Shown here in pieces: positions 2,135 through 55,459 of a stretch of DNA of 64,000 nucleotides. The stretch lies in the NCBI RefSeq assembly GCF_019668465.1, contig NZ_AP024828.1, positions 2,666,001 through 2,730,000 on the forward strand. The letters are read 5' to 3'. Numbering within the stretch: the first letter of the stretch is position 1; every line of letters begins with the position of its first letter. Source of the DNA: Mycobacterium senriense (GTDB lineage: Bacteria; Actinomycetota; Actinomycetes; Mycobacteriales; Mycobacteriaceae). The translations under genes were made by a program, and so were the position numbers. Below the pieces are notes generated by a model. The model was not told the DNA's origin. It saw nothing but the letters and a program-made list of their open reading frames with translations, and made no database searches.

Positions 2135-3205
2135 ATGTCCGAAAAGGTTCTGGTCACTGGGGGTTTCGGTCTCGTCGGCTCGCAAACGGTGCGCCGGCTG
2201 GTTGCCGACGGCCACCGCGTCGTCGCGACCGACCTGGGCACCGCCGCCCAGCGCAAAGCCGCGGCGGCGCTGCCGGCCGGGGCCGAGGCGCACTGGGCGG
2301 ATCTGACCGACCCCGGTCAGGTTGATCGGCTGCTCGCCGAGACGTCGCCGGCCGCCATCGTCCACCTGGCCGCGGTGATCCCGCCGCTGATCTATCGCCA
2401 GCCCACGCTGGGGCGCCGCGTCAACGTCGACGCGACCGTCACGCTGCTGCGCGCGGCCCAGTCGAGCCCGCACCCGGTGCGGTTCATCCAGGCGTCGAGC
2501 AACGCCGTGTACGGCGCGCGCAACCCGCACCGGCACCACGAGCTGTTGCGCCCGGACAGCCCGATGAACCCGGCCGACCTCTACGGCTCGCACAAGGCCG
2601 AAGCGGAACAGCAGCTGCGGGCGTCGGATCTCGAGTGGGTCATCCTGCGCCTGGCCGGGGTGATCAGCGTCGAACCGGACGCCATGCCGTTCAGCCTCGA
2701 CGCGTTGTTCTTCGAGAGCGCTCTGCCGGCCGATGGCCGCATTCACACCGTCGACGTCCGCGATGTCGCGCGCGCGTTCGCCGCCGCGGTCACCGCCGAT
2801 GTCGCCGGTGAGACGCTGCTGATCGCCGGCGACCAGTCGCACCTGCTTCGGCAGGGGGAGGTCGGCAAGGCGCTGGCCGCCGCGCGCGGTCTGGTCGACG
2901 TCCTGCCCGGTGGCCGGCCGGGCGATCCGGACAGCGACGACGACTGGTTCGTCACAGACTGGATGGATACGGCTCGGTCCCAGCAGGTCCTGCAATTCCA
3001 GCGCCACTCGTGGCCGGACATGCTCACCGAGATGCGGGCGGCCGCCGGGTGGCGGCGCTACCCGATGCGGTTGATCTCGCCGCTGGCCCGACGGTTCCTC
3101 AAAAGCCGTGCGGCCTACCGAAATACGCCCGGACGCTACGCCGATCCGTGGGGCGCGATCCGGGCCGGGCTGGGCGAACCGCGCCCGGATGCTCCGTCCA
3201 ACTAG
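2135..3205 (+). CDS. NAD(P)-dependent epimerase/dehydratase (extended SDR)
   Basis: 356 aa. Rossmann signature TGGFGLVG at residues 8-15 and active-site Tyr150-x3-Lys154 (YGSHK) identify an extended SDR acting on a nucleotide sugar or similar keto/hydroxy substrate. The start at ATG 2135 is chosen because the protein then begins immediately before the Rossmann strand (MSEKVLVTGG). A longer open frame upstream would read through the promoter region. It is divergent from the acyltransferase pair. The substrate is not predictable. Confidence 0.85.
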   Translation: MSEKVLVTGGFGLVGSQTVRRLVADGHRVVATDLGTAAQRKAAAALPAGAEAHWADLTDPGQVDRLLAETSPAAIVHLAAVIPPLIYRQPTLGRRVNVDATVTLLRAAQSSPHPVRFIQASSNAVYGARNPHRHHELLRPDSPMNPADLYGSHKAEAEQQLRASDLEWVILRLAGVISVEPDAMPFSLDALFFESALPADGRIHTVDVRDVARAFAAAVTADVAGETLLIAGDQSHLLRQGEVGKALAAARGLVDVLPGGRPGDPDSDDDWFVTDWMDTARSQQVLQFQRHSWPDMLTEMRAAAGWRRYPMRLISPLARRFLKSRAAYRNTPGRYADPWGAIRAGLGEPRPDAPSN

Positions 3206-50530: not shown

Positions 50531-50579
50531 TGGTGCCCCCACTAGGACTCGAACCTAGGACCTGCGGATTAAAAGTCCG
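50531..50579 (-). pseudogene. lysT: Host tRNA-Lys(UUU) 3' fragment, separated by insertion
   Basis: Minus-strand tRNA from C28 to encoded CCA (50531-50533): anticodon loop CTTTTAA, T-arm CTAGG/CCTAG, acceptor strand TGGGGGC. The 5' part of the same gene is at 55025-55052, 4.4 kb away; its acceptor GCCCCTA pairs fully with TGGGGGC. No functional tRNA can be made from this fragment alone. Confidence 0.92.
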
Positions 50580-50699
50580 TAGTTATCTGTGTGGCTATCT
50601 GGCTGTCATTTGCGTTGTCGGCGTGTCTGTGTAAGCGGATCGACGTTCCGTGTGAACATCAGGACGGCTGGTTGTCATTTCCGACATGGGAGGCGCCGT

Positions 50700-51815
50700 T
50701 TGCGGGCACAGGTGATCGGCAGGACGCCGCGCGGCGTTCCGAATGAGTGGACCGTCGTCAACGCCGAAGGGCTCCCCGACCCGATGGCTGCTGGCTACCT
50801 CAACCACCTCACGAATGTGGAAGCACCTCCGACGACGCGACGTGCGTACGCCTACGACCTCGCGGCCTATCTGACGTTCCTCGATGTCCGACAGCTCTCG
50901 CTGGATGACGTGACGAACGAGGTTCTGGGACAGTTCATCCGCTGGCTACGCGCGCCGGAAGCCAACGTTGTCGCTGTATCCGATGTGTCCGCAGCTCGCG
51001 CTCGGTCGACGACTAATCGTGCATTGTGTGCCATCTCAAGCTTCTACCGATATCTGGGAACGGGCGAGCCGGACGCTATGGGGTATCGGGGATATCAACG
51101 CCTCCGCGATTCTGCTTCGATCTTCCGGAGAGCCGACATGGGTCTTCTCGACAACGTCGGCAATGCACGCCAACACCGCGAGCGACAACGACTCGGACCT
51201 CGATTGGCGCCCAGCGAGGGGAAGCTGACAATCCTCAGCGTTCAGCAGGTGCACCGCATCTTGGAAGCATGCCCGACCTACCAGTACCGGTTTTTCTTCA
51301 CGCTAGCGTTCACCACCGGCATGCGCATCGGACAAATCCTCGGCCTGCGCCACTCTGACATCGACACCCGTCGGCGAACCGTGGAAATCGTTCCACGTGA
51401 CGACAATGAGAACGGTGCACGAGCCAAGACCCGGAGACCCCACCAATTGCCCATTACCCGTGAAGTTGCACGCCTCCACACGACCTATATGCATGAGGAG
51501 TACGGCTACATCGACAGCGATTATGTATTTGTCTCATTGTCCGGCAAGCACCTTGGCGAGGCTCTGACAGCCAGCACGATCTACAGCGCTGTCGATAGCA
51601 TCAAGCGTCGTACGGGGCTCGAGGGCTGGACCCCGCATACCCTCCGGCATACCTACGTCACGCTGCAACGCCGCGCCGGTGTTCCTATCGACGTGATCAG
51701 CAACCTAGTCACGCACGCCAACCTGCAAACCACCGTCGATATTTACAGCCACCTATCGGTGGAAGATCTCCGTAACGAGCTCATCCGTGCCGGCGCTTGG
51801 GAGACCGTCGCGTGA
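50700..51815 (+). CDS. tnpA: Tyrosine recombinase (TnpA-like)
   Basis: 371 aa from TTG 50700, 6 bp after GGGAGG; a longer open frame runs back into the element end. N-terminal SAM-like core-binding domain then catalytic domain with Arg209 (TTGMRIGQIL), His313-x2-Arg316 (HTLRHT), and Tyr349 (DIYSH). Tn554 TnpA is about the same size. Stop overlaps the next start (GTGA). Confidence 0.9.
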   Translation: MRAQVIGRTPRGVPNEWTVVNAEGLPDPMAAGYLNHLTNVEAPPTTRRAYAYDLAAYLTFLDVRQLSLDDVTNEVLGQFIRWLRAPEANVVAVSDVSAARARSTTNRALCAISSFYRYLGTGEPDAMGYRGYQRLRDSASIFRRADMGLLDNVGNARQHRERQRLGPRLAPSEGKLTILSVQQVHRILEACPTYQYRFFFTLAFTTGMRIGQILGLRHSDIDTRRRTVEIVPRDDNENGARAKTRRPHQLPITREVARLHTTYMHEEYGYIDSDYVFVSLSGKHLGEALTASTIYSAVDSIKRRTGLEGWTPHTLRHTYVTLQRRAGVPIDVISNLVTHANLQTTVDIYSHLSVEDLRNELIRAGAWETVA

Positions 51816-53788
51816 GCACTGCTGTTGTCCCGATACGAAGAAGCGACGACGACACGCAAGCGTACCGGCGATGGCTCATCAGGTTGGTGCCCGAAAAGTT
51901 TTTGCTTGACCGAGTTGGGCCAGATCCGCATGGTATCTACTCGTTTCCGCCGTGCCGCGTACGGCAGTGCCCACGTATGGCGAAGAGCCTCAGCGTGAGC
52001 CTGTGCCGCGTCCATGCCGCCGGGCTGACCGAGTCGGGCGCCGACCTAGACACCTTCCTCCGCCGCACATCCAGCGACAGCAGCCTCGGTAGGAACAGAT
52101 CCAGGTCCGGCGTTTCCGTTTGTGGCATCTTCGATTTCGGCTCGGTAGCCAACGCAACCGTTAGAGCTGAACTCGCATACGGGCTCAGCAGGCGGGCGGT
52201 CCCTGACACCGCGTGCGGGCCCGCACTCCCGGAAGCCTTCAACAAGCTTGTGGCGGCATTGAACAACGTGGCGGCCGAAAGCGTCCTCGACTTGACCGAC
52301 GAGCAGCAAGATAGCGTCAGAGCATCGTGCGGTGGGCGATGGACGTCAGCTCGGTCACTGCTGAATCAAACTGTTCGCGAGATCCGCATCGCCCGGGGCG
52401 ACAACGATGTGCGGTTCCGTCTCGGTTCCCGCCGGGGCGGCTCGTCACGATTCTCGCGGCACCAGGAGATCGCCCAGCCCTGGCTGCGGGACCTGGTGGC
52501 CCGATGGGTCCAATTTCGACTCAACACCGAGGCGGCGTCAGCCCAACACATCGGACAGCAAGAAGCGATGCTCGTCCAATTCGCGAGCTGGTGTGCAGCC
52601 AAGCCCATTTCGTCGCCCGCAGACTTCACAAGAAGCCTCCTCGTCGACTGGCTGGGCCATGTCCGAATCCTCACTAACGACAAGACCGAATCGCCGATCA
52701 GCGCAAGCTACCGGGCGAAGTTCGTCACCACGGTGGAACAGTTCATCGAGGTCACTCGCACCGAATTCGACCAACGGGTGCCGGCCAACGCGCGATACCT
52801 CAGCGGCGAAAGGCCAACACGCGACATTCCCCAGCCGCGGTTCCTGGAACCTCATGTCATCGAGACGCTCCGGCGGCCCCAGAACCTGGAGCGCATCAAG
52901 GACCCCGCCCACCGATTAGCGATCACGATCATGATGAATGTCGGTCTTCGCGCCGGCCATACATGCGCCCTCCCGTTCGACTGCCTCCGCGACCTCAACA
53001 GCGGTGACAGCACCGACAAATGGGCGCTCAACTTCATTGACACAAAGTCCAAACGCAACATGATGCTGCCCGCTGCACCCACCGTTGCTACCGCAATTCA
53101 GACCTTCCAGACCGCGCAGCTCAAACGTCTCGCTCACCCTCCAGAACTGCTCTTCCACAACCCGAAGGCATATAAGACCAACCAACTCGCACCCGAGAAG
53201 TTGAACATCACCATCAACCGCTGGGTGGCCGAACTCAATCTCAAAGAATCTGACGGATCACCGGTCAAGGTGACACCGCACCGGTTTCGACACACCTTCG
53301 CAACCGAGATGCTCGACAAAGGCGTCCCTATCGACGTGGTCTCCCAACTGCTCGGTCATCGAAACCTCACGAGCACGCAGATCTATGCCACGGTCACCGA
53401 TAAGCGACTCCGCCAAGAGTGGGAAAAGTCCCAGATTGTCAACGTCCGTGGAGACGTCATCGCCCTGCCAACCGGCCCAGAAGCCGACGCCGAATGGCTA
53501 CTTCACCGCATCGGTCGGGCCATCCAGCCGCTGCCGAACGGTTACTGCGGGCTGCCAATTCAGCAGACCTGTCCACACGCCAACGCCTGTCTTGACGACT
53601 GCGATCACTTCATGACCACCAAGGACTTCCTTCCCGTGCTGGTCGAACAACGCGACACCCACGCACGTTTTGTCAGCAAAGCTGAACTCGAAGGACACCT
53701 GCGGATCGCCGAAATCAACCGGCGGCCCATGGAAAACCTGAACCGAATCATCCGAACAGTGGAGGGCGCCAGCAATGTCGAGTCTTGA
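51812..53788 (+). CDS. tnpB: Large tyrosine recombinase (TnpB-like)
   Basis: 658 aa from GTG 51812. Catalytic residues Arg380 (GLRAGHT), His490-x2-Arg493 (HRFRHT) and Tyr525 (QIYATV). A long Cys/His-containing N-terminal part and a C-terminal part with CPHANACLDDCDHF (a possible zinc site) are as in large Tn554 TnpB proteins. Acts with TnpA. Translation coupled by GTGA and by a 14-bp overlap to the next gene. Confidence 0.9.
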   Translation: MSTAVVPIRRSDDDTQAYRRWLIRLVPEKFLLDRVGPDPHGIYSFPPCRVRQCPRMAKSLSVSLCRVHAAGLTESGADLDTFLRRTSSDSSLGRNRSRSGVSVCGIFDFGSVANATVRAELAYGLSRRAVPDTACGPALPEAFNKLVAALNNVAAESVLDLTDEQQDSVRASCGGRWTSARSLLNQTVREIRIARGDNDVRFRLGSRRGGSSRFSRHQEIAQPWLRDLVARWVQFRLNTEAASAQHIGQQEAMLVQFASWCAAKPISSPADFTRSLLVDWLGHVRILTNDKTESPISASYRAKFVTTVEQFIEVTRTEFDQRVPANARYLSGERPTRDIPQPRFLEPHVIETLRRPQNLERIKDPAHRLAITIMMNVGLRAGHTCALPFDCLRDLNSGDSTDKWALNFIDTKSKRNMMLPAAPTVATAIQTFQTAQLKRLAHPPELLFHNPKAYKTNQLAPEKLNITINRWVAELNLKESDGSPVKVTPHRFRHTFATEMLDKGVPIDVVSQLLGHRNLTSTQIYATVTDKRLRQEWEKSQIVNVRGDVIALPTGPEADAEWLLHRIGRAIQPLPNGYCGLPIQQTCPHANACLDDCDHFMTTKDFLPVLVEQRDTHARFVSKAELEGHLRIAEINRRPMENLNRIIRTVEGASNVES

Positions 53789-54167
53789 AGCCAGAATCGA
53801 GACACTCGCCGCTGCAAACCTTGTGCGCCACAACAGAAAACGTCAGGCCGTCGAGACAGCCCTCAAGTCCCTCCGAAGCGAAAGAAGCCGGATGACAGTG
53901 AGCGCGGTAGCCAGTCGCGCACAAGTTTCGCGCAACTTCGTCTACGGCCAACCCGACCTCCTCCGGGAGATCCAGACCGCCGTCGCCGAACAATCTGACC
54001 GATTGATCCGCGCTCAATCAACCACGTCCACCGAAGCAAGCCTGCGAAGGCGACTTGCCAACGCGCTGGACGCACTTAAGGAGAACAAACGCGTTATCGC
54101 CCAACAACAGGCGACTATTGAACGGCTTACCGGCGAACTCAGCCGGCGGATGACACCGGGCGTGTGA
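53775..54167 (+). CDS. tnpC: TnpC-like accessory protein (DUF6262-type)
   Basis: 130 aa. N-terminal HTH (MTVSAVASRAQVSRNFVY) and a C-terminal coiled coil (ALDALKENKRVIAQQQATIE). TnpC of Tn554 modulates integration efficiency and orientation. Overlaps tnpB by 14 bp, so it is coupled. Confidence 0.85.
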   Translation: MSSLEARIETLAAANLVRHNRKRQAVETALKSLRSERSRMTVSAVASRAQVSRNFVYGQPDLLREIQTAVAEQSDRLIRAQSTTSTEASLRRRLANALDALKENKRVIAQQQATIERLTGELSRRMTPGV

Positions 54168-54173
54168 CCACCA

Positions 54174-54512
54174 ATGACCGGCAATCGCACAAGACTCGCT
54201 CGCTTCACGCACCGAACTACCCGCCACCCATGCCATTACCGTGAGGCCATGCGCTTGCGCCATATCTGCGAGGTCTGCGGCACCGAGGAAATTCTGACCG
54301 CCGAGGCCGCCTATCACGCGGGGTGGGACTACCCACCACGAATGGGCGTATTCGGCGTCATCGGCCCACGCACCTGCTCCAACTGCGCAGTCAATCGGAC
54401 CGTGTGGTGGGCGATCACGGTCGACGGGTACACCACCGACATGCTCACACCACAGCAGAAAGCAGTCATCGCGCGAATCCTCGGGGAGCCAGCCAGCATC
54501 GCAGAGCCCTGA
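54174..54512 (+). CDS. Zinc-ribbon hypothetical protein in the element
   Basis: Up to 112 aa, 6 bp after tnpC. Two CxxC pairs (ICEVCGTEE and RTCSNCAVN) make a zinc ribbon; the rest has TAEAAYHAGWDYPPRMGVFG. ATG 54249 (MRLRHICEVCG) is a likely alternative start because the first 25 residues are low-complexity and lack a ribosome site. Function unknown. Confidence 0.68.
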   Translation: MTGNRTRLARFTHRTTRHPCHYREAMRLRHICEVCGTEEILTAEAAYHAGWDYPPRMGVFGVIGPRTCSNCAVNRTVWWAITVDGYTTDMLTPQQKAVIARILGEPASIAEP

Positions 54513-54609
54513 AATAGACCTGACGCAAGAACCGATGGATGAGCCGGACTGGCGACCGCCAAGTACACACCTACAGATATGGATGTCCTCCACGGCTGTA
54601 GTGATGAAG

Positions 54610-54899
54610 TGGGCCCTGTGGGAATCGAACCCACAACCCGCGGATTAACTTGCCACTTCGGCTTTCGCCGCCGCTACGAATAGCGTTCGTGGTCTGGACC
54701 GTCCCTTCACCCTGACTGTCGTCGAGGGTGCCACCCGTCCGGTCTCTACACCTTCCGAGGATTAACCTCGGCTTGGCTCGGGATTGCCATCTGACCGAAG
54801 CCAGGAAGGGTTCCCCGAATTTGAGTGGTGTCATCCATGGGGTTTCCCCCGTGGCGCTCCTATTGAAGTCCGCTGCTCTGCCAATTGAGCTAAAGGCCC
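54610..54899 (-). tRNA. tRNA-Lys(UUU) interrupted by a group I intron
   Basis: 5' exon 54866-54899 (G1 to U34), 3' exon 54610-54648 (U35 to A73). Spliced product is 73 nt with anticodon UUU, full D-arm GCTC/GAGC, anticodon stem GCGGA/TCCGC, T-arm GTGGG/CCCAC, acceptor GGGCCTT/AGGGCCC. CCA is not encoded. The sequence differs from the host tRNA-Lys remnant (acceptor GCCCCTA), so it is carried by the element rather than a duplicate. Confidence 0.92.
54649..54865 (-). ncRNA. Group I self-splicing intron (IC3-like) in tRNA-Lys anticodon
   Basis: 217 nt. Core elements in order: P (AAATTCGGGGAACCC), Q (GGCAATCCCGAGCCAAGCC), R (GTGTAGAGACCGGACGG), S (AAGGGACGGTCC), matching cyanobacterial tRNA-Leu introns. 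5' exon ends U34; P1 is CUUC/GGAG with U34 facing G, the required U.G pair. The intron ends in G (54649), the omega-G. No homing endonuclease. Confidence 0.92.
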
Positions 54900-54956
54900 T
54901 TGTCGAAGGAGTCTACCCAACAATCTGCTGCGGTCGCTCACCCTCCTTCTCACTCG

Positions 54957-54974
54957 GCGTGAACATGTTCACGC
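54957..54974. repeat. 18-bp perfect palindrome near the right end of the element
   Basis: GCGTGAACATGTTCACGC. Half of it (GTGAACAT) is repeated at 50652-50659 near the left end. Lies between the cargo tRNA and the right terminal repeat; probably a recombinase or regulator site. Confidence 0.6.
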
Positions 54975-55024
54975 GGACATTTGCGCAGGTCCACCCCCTC
55001 TCAGCTCGATTTGGGCAGATAACA

Positions 55025-55052
55025 GCTGCTCTACCAACTGAGCTATAGGGGC
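55025..55052 (-). pseudogene. lysT: Host tRNA-Lys(UUU) 5' fragment
   Basis: G1 to C28: GCCCCTA acceptor strand, D-arm GCTC...GAGC. Ends at the element. Pairs with the fragment at 50531-50579 to reconstruct one 76-nt tRNA-Lys(UUU) with encoded CCA. Its promoter (-10 at 55064-55069) lies outside the element. Confidence 0.9.
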
Positions 55053-55176: not shown

Positions 55177-55249
55177 GCCCCCATCGTCTAGTGGCCTAGG
55201 ACGCCGCCCTTTCACGGCGGTAGCACGGGTTCGAATCCCGTTGGGGGTA
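55177..55249 (+). tRNA. gltT: tRNA-Glu(UUC)
   Basis: 73 nt, cloverleaf complete: acceptor GCCCCCA/TGGGGGT, anticodon loop CTTTCAC (TTC), T-loop GGTTCGAATCC. CCA not encoded. First of Glu-Asp-Phe tRNA cluster. Confidence 0.95.
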
Positions 55250-55278
55250 CGCGACGCGGTGACGCGGAGCAGCAGCAA

Positions 55279-55355
55279 GGCCCTGTGGCGCAGTTGGTTA
55301 GCGCGCCGCCCTGTCACGGCGGAGGTCGCGGGTTCGAGTCCCGTCAGGGTCGCCA
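55279..55355 (+). tRNA. aspT: tRNA-Asp(GUC)
   Basis: Acceptor GGCCCTG/CAGGGTC (G2.T71 wobble), anticodon loop CTGTCAC (GTC), encoded CCA at 55353-55355. Confidence 0.95.
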
Positions 55356-55382
55356 AGCGCGGCGAGACAATCGCTGCCCTCC

Positions 55383-55459
55383 GGCCAGGTAGCTCAGTCG
55401 GTACGAGCGTCCGCCTGAAAAGCGGAAGGTCGGCGGTTCGATCCCGCCCCTGGCCACCA
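55383..55459 (+). tRNA. pheU: tRNA-Phe(GAA)
   Basis: Acceptor GGCCAGG/CCTGGCC, anticodon loop CTGAAAA (GAA), encoded CCA at 55457-55459. End of the cluster. Confidence 0.95.

Follow-up and report, generated by a model that had tools for sequence, protein, structure and literature searches.

A Tn554-like transposon splits the native tRNA-Lys(UUU) gene of Mycobacterium senriense and carries an intron-interrupted tRNA-Lys(UUU) that probably replaces it

How does a bacterium survive when a mobile element has inserted itself into its one native gene for the tRNA that reads AAA codons? This question is raised by a 64,000-nucleotide stretch of the M. senriense genome (contig NZ_AP024828.1, positions 2,666,001 to 2,730,000; hereafter the window, in which position 1 is its first letter). 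Here a Tn554-like transposon of 4,440 bp divides the native tRNA-Lys(UUU) gene and carries a second tRNA-Lys(UUU) of foreign type, interrupted by a group I intron; no other tRNA-Lys(UUU) was found in the rest of the assembly, and relatives have the native gene intact. We consider it very likely that the insertion broke the host gene and that the cargo tRNA rescues the host. In the mechanism we propose, the transposon would have entered the single-copy gene and destroyed it, leaving the foreign, intron-containing tRNA alone to read the host's AAA codons, and the host would probably now depend on the element that invaded it.

The native gene lies on the minus strand in two pieces, one holding tRNA nucleotides 1-24 (55029..55052) and the other nucleotide 31 through the CCA end (50531..50576), at the ends of the 4.4-kb Tn554-type element that the original prediction had described as splitting a host tRNA-Lys. 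The hexamer at the left junction, CCGTAG (50577..50582), is the native target core and supplies tRNA nucleotides 25-30, CTACGG, which intact relatives also have there; the hexamer at the right junction, CAGCTG (55023..55028), is a foreign footprint, presumably carried over from the element's previous site. The break had been placed in the anticodon stem, and the crossover hexamer does run into the 5′ strand of that stem, although it begins at the end of the D-stem. Likewise, the acceptor stem formed by the two halves pairs over 7 bp, but one of these pairs is U-G, so that a pairing described as perfect is not Watson-Crick throughout. When the flanks are joined in a script with the left hexamer kept, ARAGORN reads an intact tRNA-Lys(TTT) adjoining tRNA-Glu. 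The native locus is marked by a cluster of tRNA-Glu, tRNA-Asp and tRNA-Phe genes (55177..55459, plus strand). ARAGORN reads no tRNA from either native half alone, nor from the filled site in its default mode, and the host tRNA gene is restored at neither junction of the element.

Inside the element, ARAGORN in intron mode finds a tRNA-Lys(TTT) on the minus strand (54609-54899) with an intron at position 35, and the two exons, once joined, give a tRNA-Lys(ttt) cloverleaf. Within the 290-nt cargo gene (54610..54899, minus strand), the intron is 217 nt long (54649..54865), falls between U34 and U35, and has the hallmarks of group I: a conserved core, a P1 helix with a U-G pair at the 5′ splice site, and a terminal G. 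In a search of 10 kb, the Rfam group I intron family RF00028 matches 54875-54674 on the minus strand with 48.9 bits (E 3.4e-10). Intron mode, joined exons and family match together bear out the earlier description of a complete, group-I-interrupted tRNA-Lys(UUU) within the element. We aligned the cargo with the intron tRNAs of a mycobacterial relative (G107), Gordonia phage Daredevil, plasmid pCTX-M3 and a further assembly (G293), a set of five that is small and picked by similarity; the alignment folds as cloverleaf arms around a structured intron, both sides are changed in some sequence at 34 of 85 predicted pairs, and at the 5′ splice site four sequences have a U-G pair and one has C-G. The intronless tRNA-Lys genes of genomes G011 and G180, identical to each other, agree with the joined exons of Daredevil at 69 of 73 positions, and the predicted splice junction is therefore supported. 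Judging from its sequence, the cargo tRNA is presumably transcribed, spliced and charged.

The assembly, 5,831,451 bases long in 3 contigs, has a completeness score of 100%. A tRNA model finds 45 genes in it, the cargo tRNA not among them, and when the 44 loci holding these genes are re-read by ARAGORN a single tRNA-Lys appears, with anticodon CTT. A single copy of the 11-mer GACTTTTAATC exists in the assembly, within the broken 3′ half. The tRNA model, ARAGORN and the 11-mer search thus find no further tRNA-Lys(UUU) in the assembly, and the only other tRNA-Lys is the CUU one.

To survey relatives, we searched two overlapping sets of genus genomes for the native tRNA-Lys(UUU) pattern, allowing one mismatch and counting the window's own genome. 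Among 80 genomes chosen from 396 (assemblies in few contigs, together with G107), 76 have a native-type gene, with one match each; in the second draw 260 of 286 do, as do 251 of the 266 that are of high quality. Thirty of the 76 matches were inspected, and in all thirty element-free loci an intact tRNA-Lys neighbours the tRNA-Glu/Asp/Phe cluster; the two are oriented head to head in 29 and arranged otherwise in one (L093). Fifteen high-quality genomes lack a native match, the window's own among them. Five others have a foreign intronless tRNA-Lys instead (G011, G039, G040, G066, G180), G107 has an intron tRNA-Lys, two have a native-type gene truncated at a contig end (G033, G067), one has a native-like gene with small indels (G209), and G013, G032, G048, G127 and G145 make up the remainder. 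Five of the 260 genomes with a native-type gene have two tRNA-Lys(UUU)-like matches (G139, G148, G164, G215, G271); the extra match could be contamination or the cargo of a phage or element.

The element itself is bounded by inverted terminal repeats, TTATCTG on the left (50583..50589, plus strand) and CAGATAA on the right (55016..55022, minus strand), and encodes two tyrosine recombinases and a TnpC-like protein. On the plus strand are, in order, a tnpA-like tyrosine recombinase in a 408-aa frame (50589..51815; PF00589, E 1.3e-30; PF02899, E 1.3e-10; start uncertain); a large tnpB-like tyrosine recombinase of 657 aa (51815..53788; PF00589, E 2.5e-22), in a 663-aa frame from 51797; a DUF6262 protein of 130 aa (53775..54167; PF19776, E 3.1e-8), which from its place and size we equate with TnpC; and orf4, of 112 aa (54174..54512), which has two CxxC motifs in its frame and no family match in Pfam, NCBIfam or PADLOC. 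None of the four genes has a phage structural or repressor match. An ordinary and a large tyrosine recombinase followed by a small TnpC-like gene is the Tn554-type order, and the six-base footprint is also of that type, with the native hexamer at the tnpA side and the foreign hexamer at the far side; in Tn554-related elements, 6 bp of the donor site's left flank are copied to the right of the new site (PMC10214605). The Tn554-like label comes from gene content and footprint; the NCBIfam matches of the element's proteins include no model of Tn554. Inverted terminal repeats and the 6-bp footprint are common to the element and the transposons of that paper, whose hosts are Staphylococcus and Enterococcus, whereas the element described here disrupts a tRNA gene and has a tRNA as cargo. 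In genome G271, the second of the two tRNA-Lys(UUU)-like matches has CAGCTG at exactly this place; on these six bases, the element probably came from another tRNA-Lys gene. The tnpB-like recombinase has 29 aligned relatives at 46-96% identity, mostly metagenomic and without context, the named ones including Sinomonas (S. atrocyanea), Arthrobacter (sp. MAHUQ-56) and Marisediminicola; scans of genome contigs with the element's TnpB and TnpA gave no relative.

A host that lives on a replacement tRNA has a precedent among phages. In tRNA-dependent lysogeny, described by Guerrero-Bustamante and Hatfull in 2024, phages insert into tRNA genes, tRNA-Lys-TTT among them, without rebuilding them, and encode the missing tRNA (PMC10865867). 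M. smegmatis has a single tRNA-Lys-TTT, and an att-int plasmid of phage Fionnbharth yielded M. smegmatis transformants only with the phage tRNA-Lys-TTT and none without it (PMC10865867). Because the plasmid lacking the tRNA gave no transformants, dependence on tRNA-Lys-TTT has been demonstrated in a mycobacterium, and these plasmid and phage experiments support the original prediction that loss of the single gene should be lethal. That prediction named two findings that would overturn it, an additional intact tRNA-Lys(UUU) in the genome and relatives with no intact tRNA-Lys at this site; neither turned up, and rescue and dependence are well supported by the genome evidence. The rescue strategy is already published for phages; what is new is the transposon and the intron 4 nt from the crossover hexamer. 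The published cases are temperate phages, whereas the element here is a 4.4-kb Tn554-like transposon, and the available part of that report describes none of its cargo tRNAs as intron-containing, whereas the tRNA here has a group I intron. In a literature search that was mainly open-access, we found no report of a transposon with a replacement tRNA or of an intron tRNA-Lys as cargo.

One of the published phages bears directly on the intron. Daredevil integrates at tRNA-Lys-TTT, and is described as having no tRNA of its own and as forming clear plaques (PMC10865867). Its genome nevertheless contains, near attP, an unannotated intron-containing tRNA-Lys(UUU) (L076 2998-3310). Upstream of the integrase gene lies a 21-base stretch, CTACGGACTTTTAATCCGCAG (2826-2846), that is shared with the native mycobacterial tRNA-Lys; the intron tRNA is found about 150 bases beyond it, its joined exons form a tRNA-Lys(ttt), and its intron splits the sequence matching CTACGGACTTTTAATCCGCAG. 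A scan of IMG/VR for the intron-exon junction returned one contig, with Daredevil's integrase. The clear plaques argue either for a Daredevil tRNA unable to rescue G. terrae or for some other defect in the isolate.

Could the events in M. senriense have happened in the opposite order? A foreign intron tRNA-Lys might already have been present, freeing the native gene to break, in which case the element would not have had to supply the rescue. G107 has, at the native locus and with no transposase, an intron tRNA 94% identical to the cargo, and five genomes have a foreign tRNA-Lys in place of the native gene (G011, G039, G040, G066, G180). The cargo of the window, however, is enclosed by the terminal repeats of the element itself, and the two native halves, once joined, still make a perfect tRNA; the insertion is therefore recent and rescue in one step is the simpler account, and we regard the reverse order as improbable. 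Less probable still is a dead cargo, with AAA read by tRNA-Lys(CUU) or otherwise: AAA is rare, with 13 AAA against 39 AAG in the seven open frames counted, but the cloverleaf and intron pairing of the cargo are intact, and an anticodon with C34 is not expected to read AAA. Some observations do weigh against rescue by a mobile, intron-bearing tRNA. The RF00028 score of the intron is slightly below the gathering score of 50. A search of the genus (396 genomes including the window's own, with at most three candidates scored per genome) gave, among the matches listed for the 395 other genomes, nothing closely related to the element: the best has E 5.3e-80, and identity to its large recombinase is 30-36% in long matches and up to 49% in short, partial ones; nor did 393 other genomes of a class sample (394 with its own) contain an element match at E 1e-85. 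Of 29 distant Tn554-like loci, the 17 that were scanned show no tRNA by ARAGORN in its default mode, which is blind to intron tRNAs. Finally, given the clear plaques of Daredevil, which has a related intron tRNA, a tRNA of this kind may not rescue.

Group I introns are established in bacterial tRNA-Leu(UAA) and tRNA-Arg. They also occur in the anticodon loop of bacterial tRNA-fMet and tRNA-Ile2 (PMC8450103), and the cargo intron shares with the known examples the anticodon-loop site, the U-G pair at the 5′ splice site and the lack of a long reading frame, but differs in its host, tRNA-Lys(UUU), and in lying within a mobile element. Introns in cyanobacterial tRNA-Lys are 22-49 nt long (PMC5733544), which we judge too short for group I. 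Is the cargo intron, then, an incidental anticodon passenger that confers no immunity? The precedents in other bacterial tRNAs speak for this, as do phages Cain and BrutonGaster, which perform the same trick with a tRNA-Lys(ttt) that lies near the integrase and has no intron, and we put it at an even chance. On the other side, the transposon and Daredevil, which belong to unrelated classes, both have a cargo intron that divides sequence shared with the target, and an intronless plasmid tRNA has been speculated to act as a second attB (PMC10865867). The cargo intron lies 4 nt outside the crossover hexamer and would alter most of one putative recombinase arm. Intron-based immunity of the cargo to re-insertion is the less certain part of the proposed mechanism, in which disruption of this arm would leave the cargo no longer a target; it is plausible and fits both the geometry and the parallel with Daredevil, and that the intron shields the cargo against the element's recombinase seems to us an even bet at best, or slightly less.

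Related introns are found in other settings. A plasmid search gave partial matches in 1,271 records, of which three were opened and two aligned; near aac(3)-II, plasmids carry a tRNA-Leu(UAA) that is unannotated and holds a related group I intron (L075 4001-4244, L077 4001-4245, L078 4001-4244). The 595-kb record LR756511, from an uncultured phage, has a related intron tRNA (L079 about 2820-3160) whose intron seems by eye to contain an HNH-like reading frame. The G293 sequence (L082 478-800), a 68% match, is a tRNA-Leu-like intron gene whose variable arm is long. It lies on a contig of 4.8 kb that by eye has conjugation-like sequence and is perhaps contamination of that assembly.

A further system appears at the native locus of relatives. 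In five of them, a gene for a TnpB nuclease (not the tnpB-like recombinase of the transposon) lies between tRNA-Glu and a foreign tRNA-Lys: the frame is broken in G107 (L083 10360-11772), G011 (L119 9869-11295) and G039 (L120 9819-11281), and open in G180 (L171 1964-3358) and G040 (L172 1387-2844). At the G011, G039, G180 and G040 loci the foreign tRNA-Lys is intronless. Pfam OrfB_IS605 and Cas12f1-like TNB domains are present in the three TnpB nucleases run; the window locus has no TnpB nuclease between tRNA-Lys and tRNA-Glu. Relatives of these nucleases occupy at least 63 places in at least 47 of 396 genomes, with at most four candidates scored per genome. Right ends were read at 50 of the 63 places, and 47 have the conserved end CACGCTTTA or a variant, which is not found at L134, L142 and L150. 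After this end, 42 of the 47 flanks, one of them cut by a contig end, are unlike tRNA-Lys; in the five loci named above TAGCTCAGTTGGTAG or a variant follows, with an exact match to native tRNA-Lys from nucleotide 8 over 15 bases in G107, G011 and G180, 13 in G039 and 9 in G040. The left end was located in 16 of 30 loci searched, representing 15 distinct sites, and a C precedes it in 14 of these. Because the empty site of one copy in a relative reads GTGTGCC-TA-AGCTGCG (other relatives differ there), the motif before that copy's guide is CCTA. The native tRNA-Lys reads GCCCCTA-TAGCTCAGTTGGTAG, with motif and guide in register, and each foreign tRNA has 2 or 3 mismatches to the guide over 16 positions. 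The D-arm fragment next to the foreign tRNAs might have been taken for leftover debris, but we dropped this idea because the fragment lines up in register with where other TnpB copies have their right ends. In G060, a second TnpB copy (L189 about 267-330) precedes a T-arm-like sequence, GGTCGCAGGTTCGATT.

The nucleases of G180 and G040 differ with a dN of 0.28 and a dS of 1.86, which is saturated. Because the three tRNA-guided TnpB nucleases in the tree form one group (99/95; 30 of 32 rows, G107 and G039 having been dropped with broken frames unfit for the start motif), one old insertion appears likeliest. The likeliest origin of the guide is as the flank that followed insertion of a TnpB nuclease into the native gene, for which no new function is needed; the exact retention of 13-15 bases in four of the five loci while both sides diverged exceeds what a flank origin accounts for. 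G066 has a Daredevil-type intronless tRNA-Lys at the native locus with no TnpB nuclease (L197 83-158), which argues against a strict link between TnpB and tRNA. The same mainly open-access literature search found no report of TnpB guided to a tRNA-Lys gene.

These loci invite a wider reading, which we offer tentatively and rather doubt: that in mycobacteria and their phages tRNA-Lys(UUU) is a battleground on which a transposon, phages and TnpB loci swap an essential gene for a version that their own machinery misses, with the intron shielding the cargo in the window and the five TnpB loci acting by cleavage and rescue. If this is true, native alleles that arrive or are restored would be cut, while the linked foreign tRNA-Lys keeps the cell alive. 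Because default tRNA annotation misses intron tRNAs, as in the published example of Daredevil, such cargo is probably undercounted. With the rescue proposed for M. senriense, tRNA-dependent integration would no longer be confined to phages but would include a transposon, and the persistence of a group I intron in a tRNA could be explained, in a way open to testing, by the need to hide the replacement from the element's own recombinase. The TnpB loci, for their part, suggest that in nature an essential gene may be replaced and its old allele then attacked by an RNA-guided nuclease.

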